Assembly (NCBI RefSeq): GCF_027531815.1
Contig: NZ_JAPZSK010000004.1
Span: 186,001 to 250,000, forward strand
Length of the DNA: 64,000 nt
Origin: Gemmatimonas sp.
GTDB taxonomy: Bacteria; Gemmatimonadota; Gemmatimonadetes; Gemmatimonadales; Gemmatimonadaceae
Direction of reading: 5' to 3'
How positions within the stretch are numbered: position 1 is the first letter of the stretch; each line of letters opens with the position of its first letter. This document shows positions 2,274 to 12,016 of this stretch, in pieces. Position numbers and translations under genes: made by a program. The notes beneath the pieces were generated by a model. That model saw nothing but the letters and a program-made list of their open reading frames with translations, was not told the origin of the DNA and searched no databases.

Positions 2274-3776
2274 TCAGTCCTCGCCGTCGTCCTTGCCGGG
2301 GCCGTTCAGCTTGTTGCGCAACGTGCGCACGCTGATCCCCAGGAGTTCGGCGGCCTTCGTCCGGTTATTATCGGCAGCATGCAGCGCGTGCTGAATCAGC
2401 ACGCGTTCCGCCTCGGCCACATTGAGGGAATTGAGGGCGATGCTGCCGGCGGCGCCGACGGCGGTGGCGGTGCTGCCCCCCCCAACGGCCTCCCCAACGG
2501 CCCCCGGCGCCGCGGCCGCACCGGATACCGCCAGCACGGCCGATGAGCCGACGCCCGGGGTGGTGAAGGCGCGCGGGCGCATGTTGGGCTTGCCGAGGGA
2601 GTGGGCCAGACCGAAGCGCGTGCCCTCGAGGCAGTGCGGCTGGATGATCGGGTCCGGAGTGAGAATGACGGCCCGCTCGATCACGTGCTGCAATTCGCGC
2701 ACATTGCCTGGCCACGGGTAAGACTGGAGCGCCTCGAGCGCGTCGGGGGAGAGCCCCTCGATCTTCTTGCCCAGTTCCGCGGCGACGCGCATCGCGAAGC
2801 GCAGTGCCAGCACCGGGATGTCCTCCGGCCGCTCCCGCAGGGGCGGGATGAGCACCGGGATGGTACTCAATCTGTAGTAGAGGTCCTGCCGGAACGTCCC
2901 GTGGTCGGCCTCCATGGCCAGATCCCGGTTGGTGGTGGCCACGATGCGCACATCCACTTTGATGGGGGTCGTGCCGCCGACGCGTTCGAATTCCTGCTCC
3001 TGCAACACGCGAAGCAGCTTCGCCTGCAGGTCGAGTCGCATTTCCGAGATTTCGTCGAGCAATAGCGTGCCGCGGTTGGCGCGCTCGAACGCCCCTTCGA
3101 CCCGCTTGATGGCGCCGGTGAAGGCACCCTTTTCGTGGCCAAAGAGCGCCGACTCGACCAAGCCTTCCGGCAGCGCCGCGCAGTTGAGCTTGATGAAGGG
3201 CTTGTCGCGGCGCTCGGATTGGTCGTGAATCGCCCGGGCGAACAGTTCCTTCCCGGTGCCCGACTCCCCCTGCAGCAGCACCGTGGCTCGGGTGGGGGCG
3301 GCCATGCTCACGGTCTGGAGAATGCGGCGGATGCTGGGTGAATCGCCGATGATCTGCCGTTCGTTGCGGAACTGCATGACCTCCTTGCGGAGCGATTCGT
3401 TTTCCCGGCGCAGGCGAACGAACTCCAGCGCCTGGTCGACCGCCAGCTCCAGCTGCTGGGGGCGCACTGGCTTCGTGATGTAGTCGATCGCGCCAGCCTT
3501 GATGCTCGCTACGGCATGCTCGATGCTGGCGTGCCCCGTCAGCATGATGAGCGGAATGTCGTACCCCTCGCGCGTGAGGAGCTGGATGAACTCCAGCCCC
3601 GTCAGCCCCGGCATGCGGTAGTCGGAGATGATCAGGTCGATCGCACTTTGCTCGAGGATCCGGAGCGCTTCCGGGACACTGCGGGCGCCTACCGGAGTGT
3701 GACCGGCGTGCGCGAGGGCGTCCTCGAGGATCAGGCCGACTGCCGGCTCGTCGTCGACGTAGAGGATCGTGGCCAT
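2274..3776 (-). CDS. Sigma-54 dependent response regulator, NtrC/FlgR type
   Basis: The 500-aa protein has three domains. Residues 1-120 are a receiver with acidic DDE near the N-terminus, phospho-acceptor Asp at 52 (ISDYRMPG) and the conserved Lys in DYITKPV. Residues 140-375 are an AAA+ ATPase with Walker A GESGTGKE and an intact GAFTGA loop that contacts sigma-54. The C-terminus is a Fis-type helix-turn-helix (NNRTKAAELLGISVRTLRNK). I chose the ATG at 3776 (MATILYVDDE) because the receiver begins there. It lies between two sigma-54 type promoters, so a role as the flagellar class II activator is inferred. No partner kinase gene is seen beside it. Confidence 0.92.
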   Translation of the reverse strand: MATILYVDDEPAVGLILEDALAHAGHTPVGARSVPEALRILEQSAIDLIISDYRMPGLTGLEFIQLLTREGYDIPLIMLTGHASIEHAVASIKAGAIDYITKPVRPQQLELAVDQALEFVRLRRENESLRKEVMQFRNERQIIGDSPSIRRILQTVSMAAPTRATVLLQGESGTGKELFARAIHDQSERRDKPFIKLNCAALPEGLVESALFGHEKGAFTGAIKRVEGAFERANRGTLLLDEISEMRLDLQAKLLRVLQEQEFERVGGTTPIKVDVRIVATTNRDLAMEADHGTFRQDLYYRLSTIPVLIPPLRERPEDIPVLALRFAMRVAAELGKKIEGLSPDALEALQSYPWPGNVRELQHVIERAVILTPDPIIQPHCLEGTRFGLAHSLGKPNMRPRAFTTPGVGSSAVLAVSGAAAAPGAVGEAVGGGSTATAVGAAGSIALNSLNVAEAERVLIQHALHAADNNRTKAAELLGISVRTLRNKLNGPGKDDGED

Positions 3777-4037: not shown

Positions 4038-4949
4038 ATGCGCGTCACCAACTCGACCATCACCCTCCGCAGCCAGCTCCGCGTGCAGCAGACGCTGCAG
4101 GCGATCGATCGCGTGCGCGAGGACATCTCCAGCGGTGTGCGCGTTCGCAAGATGTCGGACAGTCCCCTCGACGGGGGGCAGCTGGTGCGCATCGGCAGTT
4201 CCATGCGGGCCATCGGCCAGTTCCGGCGGAATGCCGATGGTGGGATTTCCCGGGCGCAGGCCGAAGAAACCGTGCTCGACCAGCTGGGTAGCGCGCTCAC
4301 GCGGGCCAGCGAGCTGGGCGTGGCGCAGGCCAACGCGACGGCGAACGCCGCAACCCGTCTTGCCGCGAAGCGGGAGGTCGATCAGCTCATCAATCTTTCG
4401 GCCAACCTGGGCAACACCCGCTACGGCGACGAGTACCTTTTCGGCGGGACCCGCGCCACCGAGGCGCCCCTGCAGACGCCGGCGCCGGCCACCGGCAGGT
4501 TCTCCCGCCTGATCGACAGCAGCGGCAATCCCGTCAATCCGAGCGGCGCCATCACGATCGAAGTCGGCGACGGGCGATTCGTGACGCCGAATCACAACGC
4601 CACGCAGATCTTCCTTGACTCCGATGCGCTCGATGCGCTGCGCGCACTCTCCGATGCCCTGGGGGCGAACGACGCCGCGGCCATTCGCGCAGCGACCGAT
4701 CGGGTAACGAGCGCCAACAGCAACGTACAGGCGCTGGTGGCCACGCAGGGCGCTCGCATCAACGAAATGCAGAACGCGCGGACCGGCCTCGACACCCTCG
4801 AGTTCGATCTCACGGTGTATCGCTCGGACCTCCGGGATACCGAAGTCGACAAGGCGATGGTTGAACTGGTCGGCAAGCAGACGTTGTACCAGGCGGCCAT
4901 GAGCGCGACCTCCCGCATCCTTGGCCTCACCCTCACCAATTACCTCTGA
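4038..4949 (+). CDS. flgL: Flagellar hook-filament junction protein FlgL
   Basis: FlgL (HAP3) joins the hook to the flagellin filament. The 303-aa protein begins MRVTNSTITLRSQLRVQQTL, the flagellin-like D0/D1 start, followed by ISSGVRVRKMSDSPLDGGQL, equivalent to the S-G-x-x-x-x-x-S-D-D-P block of HAP3. It ends with VDKAMVELVGKQTLYQAAMS and ILGLTLTNYL, the C-terminal coiled coil. Length is normal. It is the first gene after a sigma-54 type promoter and is followed five bases later by fliW, an order seen in many bacteria. Confidence 0.93.
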   Translation: MRVTNSTITLRSQLRVQQTLQAIDRVREDISSGVRVRKMSDSPLDGGQLVRIGSSMRAIGQFRRNADGGISRAQAEETVLDQLGSALTRASELGVAQANATANAATRLAAKREVDQLINLSANLGNTRYGDEYLFGGTRATEAPLQTPAPATGRFSRLIDSSGNPVNPSGAITIEVGDGRFVTPNHNATQIFLDSDALDALRALSDALGANDAAAIRAATDRVTSANSNVQALVATQGARINEMQNARTGLDTLEFDLTVYRSDLRDTEVDKAMVELVGKQTLYQAAMSATSRILGLTLTNYL

Positions 4950-4954
4950 CCCAC

Positions 4955-5449
4955 ATGAGCACTGCTGCCATGGAACAGTCTCGCGGCCCCGTAGCGATTG
5001 CTCACCCCCTCGGCGCGATGGAGGTGCCCGCCGACGCGGTGATGCGCTTCACCACGCCGATGTGGGGCTTCGAGCCGCATCGCGAGTTCGCGCTGTTGCC
5101 GGCAGCCCGTCAGGGGCTCTGGTGGTTCCTTTCCACCACCGACTCGGCGACGACCTTCGTGCTCGCCGATCCGTTCGTGGCGGTCGACGGGTACAGCATC
5201 GATCTCACCGACCACGAGCGCGATGAGCTGGCGCTGGTGAACGAATCGGATGCGCTGGCGTTGGTGCTGGTCGCCCTGCCCGGAGCGGCCGGCGGGTCGG
5301 TCACCGCCAATTTCCGCGCTCCGCTCGTGTTCAACCTGAGCACGTGCCTGGTGAAGCAGGTGGTGAATCGGGACGAGCAGTTCGGTCTGGCCGAGGCGGT
5401 CGACCTCTCGCGGTATCCGCTGCAGGACGATCCCGTGGCCCAGGGCTGA
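4955..5449 (+). CDS. fliW: Flagellar assembly factor FliW
   Basis: FliW binds flagellin and, when flagellin is exported, is freed to inhibit the translational repressor CsrA. This 164-aa protein has the FliW fold pattern: a WGFEPHREFALLP block corresponding to the usual GFE start, a central FVLADPF stretch, an acidic DLTDHERDEL segment, then LVALPG and VTANFRAPLVFNLSTCLVKQ, which matches the conserved T-A-N-L-x-A-P-x-x-x-N box. It starts five bases after flgL, so the pair is one transcript. CsrA is usually encoded next to fliW but no csrA-like frame is seen in this window. Confidence 0.88.
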   Translation: MSTAAMEQSRGPVAIAHPLGAMEVPADAVMRFTTPMWGFEPHREFALLPAARQGLWWFLSTTDSATTFVLADPFVAVDGYSIDLTDHERDELALVNESDALALVLVALPGAAGGSVTANFRAPLVFNLSTCLVKQVVNRDEQFGLAEAVDLSRYPLQDDPVAQG

Positions 5450-5604: not shown

Positions 5605-7041
5605 TCAGCCGCGATCCCGCAACTGCCGGACCGCGGCCATCACGTCGCCCAGCACGCCATCCCACCCCGACGCATCCCGCTGACGAAGCATGGTGTGGCT
5701 GTCGTACCACGGGGAATGCTCGCCGCTCACCCCCCAGCGATAGTCGGGGCAGAACGGCAAGCAGAGTAACGTGCGTACGCCCGTGGCACCCGCCAGATGC
5801 GCCACGGAGGTGTCGACGGTCACCAGCAGGTCGACCCGCTGCAGCGCATGGGCCGTGTCGTTGAACGAGTGGCACTGGGCTCCCACGTCGACCAGCCGGT
5901 CCTGCAGCTCCGGCGGCAGGGCGCTGGCCACCGCGGGGGATTTCTGCATGGCCACGAACCGCACGCCGGGCAGCTGCAGCAGCGGGGCCAGCTGGGCCCC
6001 GCGCATCGAGCGACGATGATCGTTGGTGTGCTGGGGATTCCCCGCCCAGGTGAGGGCGACCGTGGGCACCCCGTCGCGCGGGAGCTGCTCGGCGAGGTGC
6101 GGCGGGCATGCGCCCTGCGGGGCGAGATAGGGCGCGCCGTCGAGCCCCTCCGGCCCGATCGCGAGCGCGTGCATCAGCGACATGAGGGGGATGTGCAGGT
6201 CATGGTCGGGCAGCGGGGTGCCGTCGACACTGCACTCGGCCACGCCGGGCGCCGCGCTCAGGAGAGGCAGCAGGGGCTCCATGGTTCTCAGGTGCACCGT
6301 GGCGCCGCGCGCGGCGAGGGTGGCGGCGAAGCGGGCGCACATGATGCTGTCACCCAATCCCTGCTCGTGCACGATGAGCAGCCGCTTCCCGCTTAGGGGT
6401 TCGCGCCCCGTCCAGCGGGGGGTCTGCGGGCGTTCGCGGTACAGCACCTCGACCCCGATGGCCTCTTCGCGGTGCTCCATCTCGGCCCAACCGGCCGGCC
6501 ATGCCCCCAGCGCCACCAGCACCATGCCGTACTGCATGCGGGCCCGTGCGTCGTTCGGTGCCAGGGCGAGCGCGGCGGCGTACACGTCCCGGGCGGCGGC
6601 GGCGTCGCCCATGTGCTTGAGGATTTCGGCCAGGTTGTGCATGGCCGCCACGTTCGTGGGGTCGAGCGCCAGCGCGCGCTCGACCGAGGCGAAGGCGAGG
6701 GGCTGATGCCCCATTTGCGAGAGGACCGCGGCCACGTCGTTCGCCGCCGTGCTGTCGTGCGGGCAGAGCGTCGCCACGGCGTGGAACTCCCGGAGCGCGT
6801 CTGCCAGCCGTCCGACGCGGCGATAGAGGACCGCCAGATCGTGATGCGGCACGTGCTCGTTGGGCGCGACGGCGACCACCTCCTCCAGCATGGCGATGGC
6901 TGCCGGGGTATCCCCGGCGCGCTCCACCTCGCGCGCCTCGCGGTACCGCGCCTGCCAGCGCGAAGCGGACGGGCGTTCCCCGGGGCGCGCGTGGGCGGCG
7001 AGTCTGGCGTTCCGAGGGGGGCGTGGCGCGGGGGGTCGCAT
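5605..7041 (-). CDS. TPR-containing glycosyltransferase, candidate flagellin glycosyltransferase
   Basis: The N-terminal half (about residues 30-200 of 478) is a run of tetratricopeptide repeats, for example GDTPAAIAMLEEVVAVAPNE and TAANDVAAVL...ALDPTN. The C-terminal half resembles the ADP-heptose/GT9-like or OGT-like glycosyltransferases attached to TPRs: GKRLLIVHEQGLGDSIMCAR and, near the end, VDLLVTVDTSVAHLAGATG. The ATG at 7041 was chosen; the open frame continues upstream into a non-coding stretch. The gene is head to head with flagellin, the usual place for flagellin-modifying enzymes, so flagellin is the likely acceptor. That target is inference. Confidence 0.75.
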   Translation of the reverse strand: MRPPAPRPPRNARLAAHARPGERPSASRWQARYREAREVERAGDTPAAIAMLEEVVAVAPNEHVPHHDLAVLYRRVGRLADALREFHAVATLCPHDSTAANDVAAVLSQMGHQPLAFASVERALALDPTNVAAMHNLAEILKHMGDAAAARDVYAAALALAPNDARARMQYGMVLVALGAWPAGWAEMEHREEAIGVEVLYRERPQTPRWTGREPLSGKRLLIVHEQGLGDSIMCARFAATLAARGATVHLRTMEPLLPLLSAAPGVAECSVDGTPLPDHDLHIPLMSLMHALAIGPEGLDGAPYLAPQGACPPHLAEQLPRDGVPTVALTWAGNPQHTNDHRRSMRGAQLAPLLQLPGVRFVAMQKSPAVASALPPELQDRLVDVGAQCHSFNDTAHALQRVDLLVTVDTSVAHLAGATGVRTLLCLPFCPDYRWGVSGEHSPWYDSHTMLRQRDASGWDGVLGDVMAAVRQLRDRG

Positions 7042-7107
7042 GCGGAGCGGACGGGGCGGAGGGGGAGATCGGCTCGGACGCGAGCCATTCACGTTTCCGT
7101 CACCTCG

Positions 7108-7342: not shown

Positions 7343-7369
7343 TCAAGTTCCGCGGTCCGGCTCCGAGAC
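7343..7369 (+). promoter_or_regulatory. Sigma-28 type promoter of flagellin
   Basis: TCAA at 7343-7346, 15 bases, then TCCGAGAC at 7362-7369 follows the flagellar sigma-28 pattern (TAAA-N15-GCCGATAA). The same GCTCAAGTT block recurs at the flgM promoter. Transcription would begin near 7376, giving a leader of about 73 bases. Confidence 0.6.
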
Positions 7370-7405
7370 TGTGCACTGACCGCGCTCCGGACGTCGGACG
7401 CGGAA

Positions 7406-7441
7406 CGAGGCACGGATGCCTCGACACACACATCACGGAGG
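7406..7441 (+). promoter_or_regulatory. Two CsrA-type binding sites in the flagellin leader
   Basis: At 7406-7423 the sequence CGAGGCACGGATGCCTCG folds into a hairpin; taking the outer five pairs leaves the hexaloop ACGGAT, the preferred CsrA/RsmE target, and the core CACGGATG fits CANGGANG. At 7434-7441 CACGGAGG also fits CANGGANG and includes the GGAGG ribosome binding site of flagellin. The two GGA cores are 23 bases apart, suitable for one CsrA dimer to bridge. This mirrors the Bacillus subtilis hag leader. Confidence 0.7.
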
Positions 7442-7449
7442 ATAGTACC

Positions 7450-8217
7450 ATGCGTATCAATACCAACGTCGGCGCCCTCACGGCTTCGCGCAACGCCTTC
7501 GTCAACAACATGGCGATGGACAGCAGCATGCGGAAGCTCGCGTCGGGCCTGCGCATCTCGCGCGCCGCCGACGACGCCGCCGGTCTGGCGATCGCCAACA
7601 AGCTGCGGACGCAGGGCCGTGCCCTCGCCCAGGCGGCGGCGAACGCCGAGCAGGGCAACGCCATGCTCCAGATCGCGGAAGGTGCCGCCCAGATCATCGG
7701 CCGCATCATCGAGCGTCAGAAGGAGCTCATCGTGCAGAAGAACAACGGCACGTCGAGCACGGCAACCATCGCCACGATGGACGCCGAAATCGCGAGCCTC
7801 TCCACGGAAGCCACGCGTATCCAGAACTCGTCGAACCTGCAGGGCACGGCGGTGTTCGGGTCGATCGTTTATCAGGTGTCCGACAGCAGCACCAACGGCA
7901 CGATCACCATCAATGCCAGCCTCACGCAGTCGGCGCTCACCGGGTCCTCGACCCTGGCCGATGCCGACGCGGCGCTCGACGTCGTGAACGCGGTGCTCGG
8001 CAACATCGGTGCCGGTCAGAACGTGCTCGACTACACGGTGCAGAACCTCAAGTCGGCGGTCGTGAACGTCCGCGCGGCCGAGTCCACCATCCGTGACGTC
8101 GACATGGCCGAGGAAATGGCCAACTACACCCGCAGCAACATCCTCACGCAGGCGGCGCAGGCCATGCTGTCGCAGGCGAACCAGGGCAGCCAGGGCATTC
8201 TCCAGCTCCTTCGCTAA
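7450..8217 (+). CDS. fliC: Flagellin
   Basis: This encodes a 255-aa filament subunit. The N-terminus MRINTNVGALTASRNAFVNN, then LASGLRISRAADDAAGLAIA, is the D0/D1 signature of flagellins. The C-terminus ends VRAAESTIRDVDMAEEMANY, TRSNILTQAAQAMLSQANQ and a final LQLLR, also canonical. The middle is short, so a surface-exposed D2/D3 domain is essentially missing. The true start is the ATG at 7450, preceded by GGAGG; the frame is open much further upstream only because of base composition. Upstream lie a sigma-28 type promoter and two CsrA-type sites. A 13-bp hairpin follows the gene. Confidence 0.96.
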   Translation: MRINTNVGALTASRNAFVNNMAMDSSMRKLASGLRISRAADDAAGLAIANKLRTQGRALAQAAANAEQGNAMLQIAEGAAQIIGRIIERQKELIVQKNNGTSSTATIATMDAEIASLSTEATRIQNSSNLQGTAVFGSIVYQVSDSSTNGTITINASLTQSALTGSSTLADADAALDVVNAVLGNIGAGQNVLDYTVQNLKSAVVNVRAAESTIRDVDMAEEMANYTRSNILTQAAQAMLSQANQGSQGILQLLR

Positions 8218-8306: not shown

Positions 8307-10367
8307 ATGTCCACCTCGATGAACATCGGGGGCCTGAGTAGCGGCATGCAGTGGAACGACATCGTCGATTCGACGATCAAGGCCCTGGAAGCCCGCTCGG
8401 TAACCCCGATCACCAGTCGGATCACCGCCCGCAGCGAACAGAAAGACGCGTGGACCAAGCTGCAGAAGCTGGTCGAAACGCTCAACACCAACGCCCGCGC
8501 ACTCCGGCGCACGGGCTTTGGTGGTTTTTCCGCGTCGGTCCCGTCGAGCCCGTCGACGTCGCGCACCCTCCTGTCGGCGACGCCCACGACCAACGCGACC
8601 GCCGGGCGGTACCGCGTCGAGGTGTTGCAGCTGGCGGATACCGCCAAGTGGTCCGGGCGCTCATTCAGCGACGTCACGGCCGCGCGCAATCTCACGGGAT
8701 CGTTCTCGATCAACGGGACCGCCATCAGCGTGGCGGCGACCGATTCGCTCGAGGCCATCCGGACCAAGATCAACGAGGCGAACGCCGGGGTCACGGCCTC
8801 GATCGTGAACGAGGGTGGGACGGCGGGGCGCCTGGTCCTCACGGCCAACTCGGCCGGCGCGACCAACGTGACGGCCGCTGACATCACCGGCACCATCACG
8901 CGCGACCTCGGGTTCGTCGACACGCGCTCCAAGCCCATTTCGTCCGCCACGATGGCTGCGGCGGCGGCGATGGGCATGTCCGTCTATCCCCAGCCGGCTC
9001 AGATCCGCGTCGGCGACGTGGTTGTCACGGCGGACCTGGCGACGGAATCGATCGCGAGTATTGCGGCCAAGATCAACGCGGCCGGCGGCTCGGCGTCGGT
9101 GGAGTCGGAACAGTATGGCAACGAGACCCGCTACCGCCTGGTGGTGGATGGTAGCGTTTCGGCCGTGGCCGGTGATCCTTCTTCCGAGGATGTGATCGAC
9201 GCGCTCGGATTCCAGGCCGGCAGTGCCGGGCTCGTACGGCAGACGATGCAGACCGGGGTTTTCATTCGCACCGCTGGGGCCAGCGAGAACCTGGCCACCA
9301 CCTCGTCATTGCTGACGGGGCTCAAGGTGGACGGCGTGGATCCCAATCTCGCGGTTGGTGACGCGATCAACATTCGCGGCACGCGCGGCGACGGCACGGC
9401 GGTGACCTTCGGACTGGTCGTCCAGAACGGCGACACCATGCAGACGCTCCTCAACCGGCTCAACGATGCCACGAGCGGCTTCGGGGCCGGGGCGCGCCCT
9501 GCCACGGCGGCGCTCGGGGAGGATGGGCGGATTCGCCTCACCGACCAGACGGGCGGCGCCTCGCGGCTGTCGCTCGCCCTGAGCATCACCCGGGCCAGCG
9601 GCTCCACCGCATCGCTCGCCACCGCGACCACGGCGGTGGTCGGGCGCAGTCGCGAACTGCAGCGCGGCCAGGATGCGGTGATCCGCGTGGATGGCCGGGA
9701 GGTCGTGCGGTCGTCCAACACCATCACGGACGCCATCAACGGCGTGAACCTCAACCTCCTCACGGCCGAGCCGGGCACGGCCATCGATGTCACGGTGGAT
9801 CGCGACGTGAAGGGTGCCACGGACGCGGTGAAGGCCTTCCGCGATGCCTACAACGACATCCGCAAGTTCTTCGACGAGCAGCGAGTGCCCGGGGCGCCGC
9901 TGTATGCCGACAGCACGTTGCGGCGCGTGGTGGACAGCTTCACGGCGTCGCTGCGCACCCAGGTGGCCGGCAATGCCACCTACAGTTCCGCCGTCAGCGT
10001 GGGGTTGGTGCTCGACCGTAATGGTCTCCTCACCTTCAGCGAGGACACGTTCAAGACGGCCATGACGTCGGCGCCCACCCAGGTCGAGACGCTCTTCGGC
10101 ATGACCGGCCTGGGGACAGCGTTCGTCACGGCCACCGACGCCGCGACCTCGTTCGGGAACGGTTCAATCAGCGTGCAGCTCGATACCATCACGCAGAGCA
10201 CCATCACCCTCCGGCGTCGCGAAGCCGACGCGCAGAAGCGGCTCGAGGCGCGCCGGCAGCAGCTGATCATCCAGTACACCCGTATGGAGGAGGCCGTGTC
10301 GAAGCTCAAGCAGCAGAGCGGGTCCCTGCTGGCGAGCATGCAGGGACTTCAGGGCAACAAGCAGTAG
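8307..10367 (+). CDS. fliD: Flagellar filament cap protein FliD
   Basis: FliD (HAP2) caps the growing filament and folds flagellin monomers into it. The 686-aa protein starts MSTSMNIGGLSSGMQWNDIV, the usual I-x-G-L-x-S-G-x-D/N-x-x-x-x-V start. It shows the FliD_N domain (IKALEARSVTPITSRI and ALRRTGFGGF) and then a long variable middle. The FliD_C domain includes VKAFRDAYNDIRKFFDEQR, YSSAVSVGLVLDRNGLLTFS and a C-terminal coiled coil with QYTRMEEAVSKLKQQSGSLL. It is longer than the roughly 450-aa enterobacterial protein because of the middle region. A GAGAGGAA ribosome binding site precedes the ATG. fliS follows. Confidence 0.95.
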   Translation: MSTSMNIGGLSSGMQWNDIVDSTIKALEARSVTPITSRITARSEQKDAWTKLQKLVETLNTNARALRRTGFGGFSASVPSSPSTSRTLLSATPTTNATAGRYRVEVLQLADTAKWSGRSFSDVTAARNLTGSFSINGTAISVAATDSLEAIRTKINEANAGVTASIVNEGGTAGRLVLTANSAGATNVTAADITGTITRDLGFVDTRSKPISSATMAAAAAMGMSVYPQPAQIRVGDVVVTADLATESIASIAAKINAAGGSASVESEQYGNETRYRLVVDGSVSAVAGDPSSEDVIDALGFQAGSAGLVRQTMQTGVFIRTAGASENLATTSSLLTGLKVDGVDPNLAVGDAINIRGTRGDGTAVTFGLVVQNGDTMQTLLNRLNDATSGFGAGARPATAALGEDGRIRLTDQTGGASRLSLALSITRASGSTASLATATTAVVGRSRELQRGQDAVIRVDGREVVRSSNTITDAINGVNLNLLTAEPGTAIDVTVDRDVKGATDAVKAFRDAYNDIRKFFDEQRVPGAPLYADSTLRRVVDSFTASLRTQVAGNATYSSAVSVGLVLDRNGLLTFSEDTFKTAMTSAPTQVETLFGMTGLGTAFVTATDAATSFGNGSISVQLDTITQSTITLRRREADAQKRLEARRQQLIIQYTRMEEAVSKLKQQSGSLLASMQGLQGNKQ

Positions 10368-10434
10368 CCGATACTCGAAAGCGTGGGGCGATGTGCGTCG
10401 CCCCGAGCCCCCTCCCCTGAGCCACTTCGGTCCA

Positions 10435-10839
10435 ATGTCCTACGCCTCACAGTCGTCGAGCTACCGGGAAATGGAGATCCACGCGGCGTCGCCGCACAAG
10501 CTCGTCGTCATTGTGTTCGAACAGCTGGTCGTGAACCTGGAGCGCGCGCGCATCGCCATGGAGCGCAACGACGTCGAACTGCGTCTGACGTCGTTGCGTC
10601 GCGCGCGCGACATCGTGACCGAGCTGCTGGGTACGCTCGACTTCGAACAGGGCGGTGCGCTTGCCAACCAGCTGGCCGACCTGTACCAGTATCTCCTGTA
10701 CGAGTTGGTCGACATCGGGCAGCGCGGTGACGTCCACGTCATGCGCAAGCTCGTCAACATCGCAAGCCTGCTGCGGGACGGCTTCGTCGGTGCGGCCGAG
10801 CAGCTGGCCTCCGAGAAGGCCGCGCGCAAGAGCGCCTGA
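10435..10839 (+). CDS. fliS: Flagellin export chaperone FliS
   Basis: FliS holds flagellin unfolded in the cytoplasm before export. The 134-aa protein is all-helical and has the family motifs: SSSYREMEIHAASPHKLVVI near the N-terminus (compare Y-x-x-x-x-V-x-T-A-S-P-x-x-L-I), then DFEQGGALANQLADLYQYLL, the G-G-x-x-A-x-x-L-x-x-L-Y block. The start at 10435 (MSYASQ) places the family N-terminus correctly; an ATG-less extension to 10393 is not needed. It follows fliD by 67 bp in the same direction. Confidence 0.92.
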   Translation: MSYASQSSSYREMEIHAASPHKLVVIVFEQLVVNLERARIAMERNDVELRLTSLRRARDIVTELLGTLDFEQGGALANQLADLYQYLLYELVDIGQRGDVHVMRKLVNIASLLRDGFVGAAEQLASEKAARKSA

Positions 10840-11728: not shown

Positions 11729-12016
11729 ATGATCAAAATCAACGGTTACATCGACTCGCTGCGGGTGGCGCCGGTGGGCACCCCGGCCGGTCCGCGTCCC
11801 GCGCAGGAAGTCAGCCAAGTCCCGGATGCCAAGCCGGTCAAGGCGGATTCGGTTCGCATCTCGGATACAGCCCGTCGGCTGAACGCGGAGCAGAACGACC
11901 CGTTCGACCCCGAGCGCGTGGCCGAACTCCGGCAGCGGGTGCTGTCCGGCGCCTACAACACCCTCGATGTGGTGGACCAGGTCGCCCGGCGTATGCTCAC
12001 ACGTGGTGATCTCTGA
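11729..12016 (+). CDS. flgM: Anti-sigma-28 factor FlgM
   Basis: FlgM holds sigma-28 (FliA) inactive until the hook is finished and FlgM is exported. The 95-aa protein has a disordered N-terminus and the conserved C-terminal half: VKADSVRISDTARRLNAEQ, then DPERVAELRQRVLSGAYNTL and VVDQVARRMLTRGDL. This is the V-x-x-S-x-x-A-x-x-L ... R-V-x-x-L-R-x-x-I-x-x-G-x-Y pattern of the family. The ATG at 11729 follows AGGAGGAGG. A sigma-28 type promoter lies just upstream, which would give the usual feedback in which sigma-28 drives its own inhibitor. cheY and cheZ follow. Confidence 0.88.
   Translation: MIKINGYIDSLRVAPVGTPAGPRPAQEVSQVPDAKPVKADSVRISDTARRLNAEQNDPFDPERVAELRQRVLSGAYNTLDVVDQVARRMLTRGDL

Follow-up and report, generated by a model that had tools for sequence, protein, structure and literature searches.

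The window, i.e., the whole stretch of 64,000 nt analysed here, lies within a 4.3 Mb genome, on its contig C4, and encodes a flagellin which is 97% identical to the nearest named one, that of a Gemmatimonas MAG, in agreement with the Gemmatimonadota lineage presumed in the initial annotation of this DNA. The genes of the proposed regulatory circuit and those that surround them, with window coordinates except for csrA, are as follows:

2274-3773, minus strand: sigma-54 activator with a receiver domain (Pfam Sigma54_activat, 235 bits)
4955-5449, plus strand: fliW, 164 aa, directly behind flgL (4038-4949) (Pfam FliW, 86.7 bits)
7450-8217, plus strand: flagellin, 255 aa, ATG at 7450, the putative regulated target (Pfam Flagellin_N and Flagellin_C)
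8307-10367, plus strand: fliD, filament cap (Pfam FliD_N and FliD_C)
10393-10839, plus strand: fliS, flagellin chaperone (Pfam FliS, 93 bits)
11729-12016, plus strand: flgM, anti-sigma-28 factor (Pfam FlgM, 33 bits)
C4:157309-157581, minus strand: csrA, 90 aa, single copy (71.4 bits against a cut-off of 27)

The fliW gene is found 2.0 kb upstream of the flagellin start, as previously noted, and its product matches at sequence level the solved FliW structures 5dmb, 5dmd and 5jak (E 6.7e-11), 5dmb being the FliW-CsrA complex. The initial annotation had proposed to search the genome for csrA, and the single copy is 28 kb upstream of the window, 5 nt behind flgK, and encodes a protein that matches solved CsrA structures at sequence level. 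Thus, csrA is behind flgK and fliW behind flgL, ~33 kb apart. Among the 30 csrA loci examined, 24 show the end of flgK encoding its C-terminus at most 130 nt from csrA. No GGA hairpin which might point to autoregulation was found directly before csrA. The minus-strand ORF 5605-7088, between fliW and the flagellin gene, looks repeat-rich and, by eye, tetratricopeptide-like, and it could encode a flagellin glycosyltransferase. The sigma-54, sigma-28 and FlgM layers attributed to this cell are represented by the sigma-54 activator, by FliA, which is encoded elsewhere in the genome, outside the window, and by FlgM.

The CsrA residues L4, R6 and R44, whose role in RNA binding is established in other species, are invariant in the 30 Gemmatimonadota CsrA compared. 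All 30 proteins have V or I at the FliW-contact position 51, and 27 have N at position 55; the CsrA of the window genome shows V51, N55 and a C-terminal extension (90 aa). V51 and N55 are needed by Campylobacter jejuni CsrA to bind FliW (PMC7829508), and the N55D change renders Bacillus subtilis CsrA FliW-blind (PMC6529632). The other three CsrA (L068, L078 and L088, of genomes G182, G201 and G125, respectively) have T in place of N55, with fliW present in each genome, and are candidates for an altered FliW-CsrA interface.

The flagellin leader shows the following features, all on the plus strand:

7343-7369, plus strand: sigma-28-like promoter, TCAAGTTC (7343-7350), 11 nt and TCCGAGAC (7362-7369), with 12 of 16 consensus matches
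about 7380-7403, plus strand: 5' hairpin P1, predicted from MFE folds of this and related leaders
7406-7423, plus strand: hairpin P2 with the first putative CsrA site, CGAGGC-ACGGAT-GCCTCG, 6 bp and a 6-nt loop, supported by covariation and loop invariance
7411-7418, plus strand: first putative CsrA site, CACGGATG, read directly, which fits CANGGANG
7432-7443, plus strand: candidate hairpin P3 over the Shine-Dalgarno, with the second putative CsrA site, ATC-ACGGAG-GAT, 3 bp here, whereas the covarying stems of relatives have 4-6 bp
7434-7441, plus strand: second putative CsrA site, CACGGAGG, read directly, which fits CANGGANG and lies on the Shine-Dalgarno

The GGA cores, read directly at 7414-7416 and 7437-7439, are 23 nt apart, and these coordinates confirm the two CANGGANG matches, the ACGGAT hairpin loop, the overlap with the ribosome-binding site and the GGA distance described in the initial annotation, which had overlooked the Shine-Dalgarno GGA in a hexaloop (P3), P1 and the sigma-28-like promoter. 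This promoter shows an identical position (-104 to -108) and identical 11-nt spacing in the genus, and from its location at 7343-7369 a leader of ~74 nt is predicted. In the consensus fold of the genus alignment (RNAalifold), just 3 core pairs of P1 are supported, 2 of them changed on both sides. A P1-like 5'-proximal hairpin is predicted across most of the genus, and inspection by eye shows one in many other families; as a guess, P1 may protect the mRNA 5' end. The 64 kb window contains, on both strands, four hexaloop hairpins of the P2 type with at least 5 bp, and only P2 precedes a GGA Shine-Dalgarno and a start codon. No match near the gathering score was found in Rfam 15 for the window leader and the 8 related loci tested.

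Of the 90 flagellin leaders of the phylum, 84 (93%) carry an ANGGAN hexaloop closed by a stem of 4 bp or more, compared with 0.8% of dinucleotide shuffles, and the GGA-GGA spacing is mostly 21-27 nt. Five of the six leaders without the hairpin are flagellin copies of one multi-copy deep family, and the sixth belongs to G248. The loop A-N-G-G-A-N is invariant in 73 distinct hairpins (22-mers, picked without requiring the A of the loop), while the stem varies freely. In 65 leaders, 99.4% of the stem cells are paired, with double changes at all five stem pairs; this percentage is partly a product of selection, since the leaders were chosen for having the hairpin, which does not affect the count of compensatory changes. 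Stem cells changed on both sides number 74 in these 65 leaders, versus 20 in shuffles and 0-6 with one side slid, and p-values overstate the independence of the leaders because they are related. Nearly all relatives keep both the GGA pair and the hairpin, with compensatory stem changes. Neither of the two observations named in the initial annotation as refuting its reading, a genome lacking csrA or close relatives whose leaders lack the GGA sites and the hairpin, was made. The short length of CANGGANG and the frequency of GGA in the genome could favour chance matches in a GC-rich leader, but the difference between 0.8% and 93%, together with covariation far above the shuffled and slid controls, refutes this explanation, whose probability we regard as negligible. 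Four leaders of family f5 (L099, L105, L108 and L208, of genomes G187, G189, G211 and G288, respectively) show two tandem ANGGAN-type hairpins before the Shine-Dalgarno, i.e., three putative CsrA sites instead of two, and G069 (L030) shows a looser version of this arrangement.

In many relatives the Shine-Dalgarno GGA is within a second hexaloop hairpin, with P3 stems such as CTGTAA/TTACAG, GTTC/GAAC, ACTCC/GGAGT, TCTCT/AGAGG and AATC/GATT. A P3 stem of at least 4 bp (loop size free) is found in 38 of 79 leaders, whereas 3000 swaps of the 3' flanks gave 13.5 such leaders on average and never more than 23; in 29 of the 38 the register is exactly that of the hexaloop. P3 is a weaker hairpin than P2 which covaries across the phylum. 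Its formation in Gemmatimonas itself is uncertain, and the Shine-Dalgarno may simply be unpaired there, because the stem in this genus, ATC/GAT, has just 3 bp.

The 298 Gemmatimonadota genomes compared include 78 with flagellin, 78 with CsrA and 74 with FliW. Flagellin and CsrA are both found in 75 genomes (Fisher p~1e-62, n=298, kinship ignored) and, judging from this distribution, CsrA in Gemmatimonadota is not a general housekeeping regulator and travels with flagella. The fliW gene is found in 73 of the 78 csrA genomes and is absent from nearly all others. G082 (98% complete) keeps fliW and the hairpin, and csrA was not found in this genome, perhaps because of an assembly gap. In L020 (G278:C338), from a Gemmatimonas relative, the flagellin start codon is lost, no fliW was found and csrA is kept; its hairpin is also kept, with a changed stem that is still paired (GAGGA-ACGGAC-TCCTC). 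This locus may reflect a decaying motility system or a mistake in the assembly. Two genomes were considered as csrA-less controls. G203 was rejected, as its second match resembles FlgL and its flagellin runs off the end of a contig. G248 has neither csrA nor fliW nor the hairpin and at first seemed an ideal negative control; it was given little weight because its flagellin, of another type and on a 5.5 kb contig, may be foreign.

Protein similarity was used to gather flagellin leaders from 46 genomes of other phyla. The hairpin is present in 25 of the 37 csrA-bearing genomes, the other 12 being without it, versus none of the nine csrA-less genomes (Fisher p 2.7e-4, kinship ignored), and fliW accompanies csrA in 36 of the 37. 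A set of 28 leaders from outside the phylum, chosen because they carry the hairpin, again shows compensatory variation in the stems, and in these leaders the Shine-Dalgarno frequently falls within a second hexaloop hairpin.

The B. subtilis hag leader was reportedly studied together with CsrA and FliW by Yakhnin in 2007 and Mukherjee in 2011. It resembles the Gemmatimonas leader in having two sites, a repressor that occludes the Shine-Dalgarno and FliW as antagonist; a passage of PMC8523840 places the two hag sites about 24 nt apart. In B. subtilis fliW and csrA are adjacent, whereas in Gemmatimonas they follow flgL and flgK, respectively. The fliC gene of Clostridioides difficile, another member of Bacillota, also has two CsrA sites, predicted from sequence, and a FliW-CsrA-FliC circuit shown genetically (PMC8523840, PMC11898703); no covariation analysis of its leader was found in the literature. 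The flaA leader of C. jejuni forms two stem-loops that each contain ANGGA, and the second of them covers the ribosome-binding site, as determined by footprinting and mutants (Dugar et al., 2016, PMC4894983). Both systems share a short leader with this arrangement, compensatory changes, sigma-28 transcription (in Gemmatimonas predicted from the promoter) and a fliW apart from csrA. However, the flaA leader has 45 nt and lacks P1, unlike the leader of ~74 nt with P1 in Gemmatimonas, where the second stem-loop, in contrast to that of flaA, has just 3 bp, and C. jejuni CsrA binds hundreds of mRNAs (PMC4894983), whereas in Gemmatimonas the model described below finds the flagellin leader only. Since RpoN, FliA, FlgM and FliW-CsrA occur together in C. 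jejuni (PMC4894983), the coexistence of these control layers, which the initial annotation had singled out, is ordinary.

A covariance model, R1, which contains the hairpin and the Shine-Dalgarno, was used to look for further CsrA targets. In the window genome (150 of 1059 candidates scored) the flagellin leader reaches 52.1 bits, a score that holds by construction because this leader is in the training set, and the next match reaches 15.3 bits. None of the next matches that were read, at 15.3 bits or less, shows both a hairpin and a Shine-Dalgarno before a plausible gene, and they were regarded as noise, since in genomes without flagella the background reaches 19-24 bits (maximum 23.7). R1 matches are found in 73 of 77 flagellated genomes, and the strong ones are nearly all before flagellin (78 candidates scored per genome). 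Because the model finds just the flagellin leader, CsrA in the window genome appears nearly single-target, and flagellin seems to be the principal, if not the sole, target of this layout; extra weak targets could exist and could be missed, given that part of the candidates was scored. One credible second target is found in the deep family f11: L194 (G003:C7:4596-4644) and L195 (G007:C109:21958-22005) show a second CsrA-type leader, with CGGGCACGGATGCCCG and GGAGGA, before a gene encoding a conserved protein of 76-79 aa, MPL-KYFRSLRGKSRR...LKKHISGIFTI. L196 (G003:C40:28298-28341) shows a perfect CsrA-type hairpin and Shine-Dalgarno before an ORF that looks phage-like, and is possibly a chance match or a borrowed operator.

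The RNA-side evidence and the presence of the partners argue strongly for the flagellin leader being a CsrA operator in a FliW-CsrA-flagellin switch, a reading that we hold with high confidence; CsrA binding, repression and the switching between FliW-flagellin and FliW-CsrA we infer by analogy with Bacillus and Campylobacter. A CsrA dimer would dock on the P2 hexaloop (GGA 7414-7416) and bridge to the Shine-Dalgarno GGA (7437-7439) in the P3 loop, keeping ribosomes off, while unexported flagellin would hold FliW. Once the hook is complete and flagellin is exported, FliW would be freed and would bind CsrA beside its RNA pockets (V51, N55), releasing the mRNA. As the leader carries a conserved two-part putative CsrA docking site, flagellin output is expected to be matched to export, so that in Gemmatimonas flagellin is very probably made only as fast as it is exported.

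It is unlikely that CsrA acts at the leader sites while FliW is only a flagellin chaperone and not its antagonist, or that a decoy small RNA acts instead. The T in place of N55 in three of the 30 CsrA and the location of fliW away from csrA would agree with this alternative, but fliW is in nearly all csrA genomes of the phylum and almost nowhere else in it, both genes also go together outside the phylum, and the FliW-contact residues N55 (27 of 30) and V/I51 (30 of 30) are kept, the window genome included. The hairpin might also have nothing to do with CsrA and serve mRNA stability or ribosome standby, with the GGA loop conserved for another reason, since 5' hairpins often stabilise abundant mRNAs and P1 is just upstream. 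A stability stem, however, does not need an invariant A-N-G-G-A-N loop, and here the loop is fixed and the stem variable; with the hairpin also missing from all nine csrA-less genomes of other phyla, we consider this explanation very improbable.

The FliW-CsrA-flagellin circuit, preferred here for the window genome, is already known from Bacillus and Campylobacter and, as no report of it in Gemmatimonadota was found in the literature search, it is new for this phylum as far as the literature was searched. Three features deserve mention as variants: the location of csrA behind flgK, what appears to be a single target, and the tandem P2 hairpins of family f5. More tentatively, and with slightly more doubt than belief, the double hexaloop, in which an ANGGAN hairpin is followed, with the two GGA cores 19-31 nt apart, by a second ANGGAN hairpin holding the Shine-Dalgarno, may be one uncurated pan-phylum element of flagellin mRNAs, with examples in Gemmatimonadota, Bacillota and Actinomycetota and a published one in Campylobacterota, and the CsrA of Gemmatimonadota may act on practically no target but flagellin. 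These results extend the proposed circuit to Gemmatimonadota with evidence from base-pair covariation, and the covariance model could be developed into an RNA family and used to recognise CsrA-controlled flagellins by their sequence. Gemmatimonadota would provide a natural case of a CsrA inherited with flagella and seemingly serving one mRNA, which bears on what CsrA did first: a near-single flagellin target, if true, is as expected were flagellin control the original task of CsrA.
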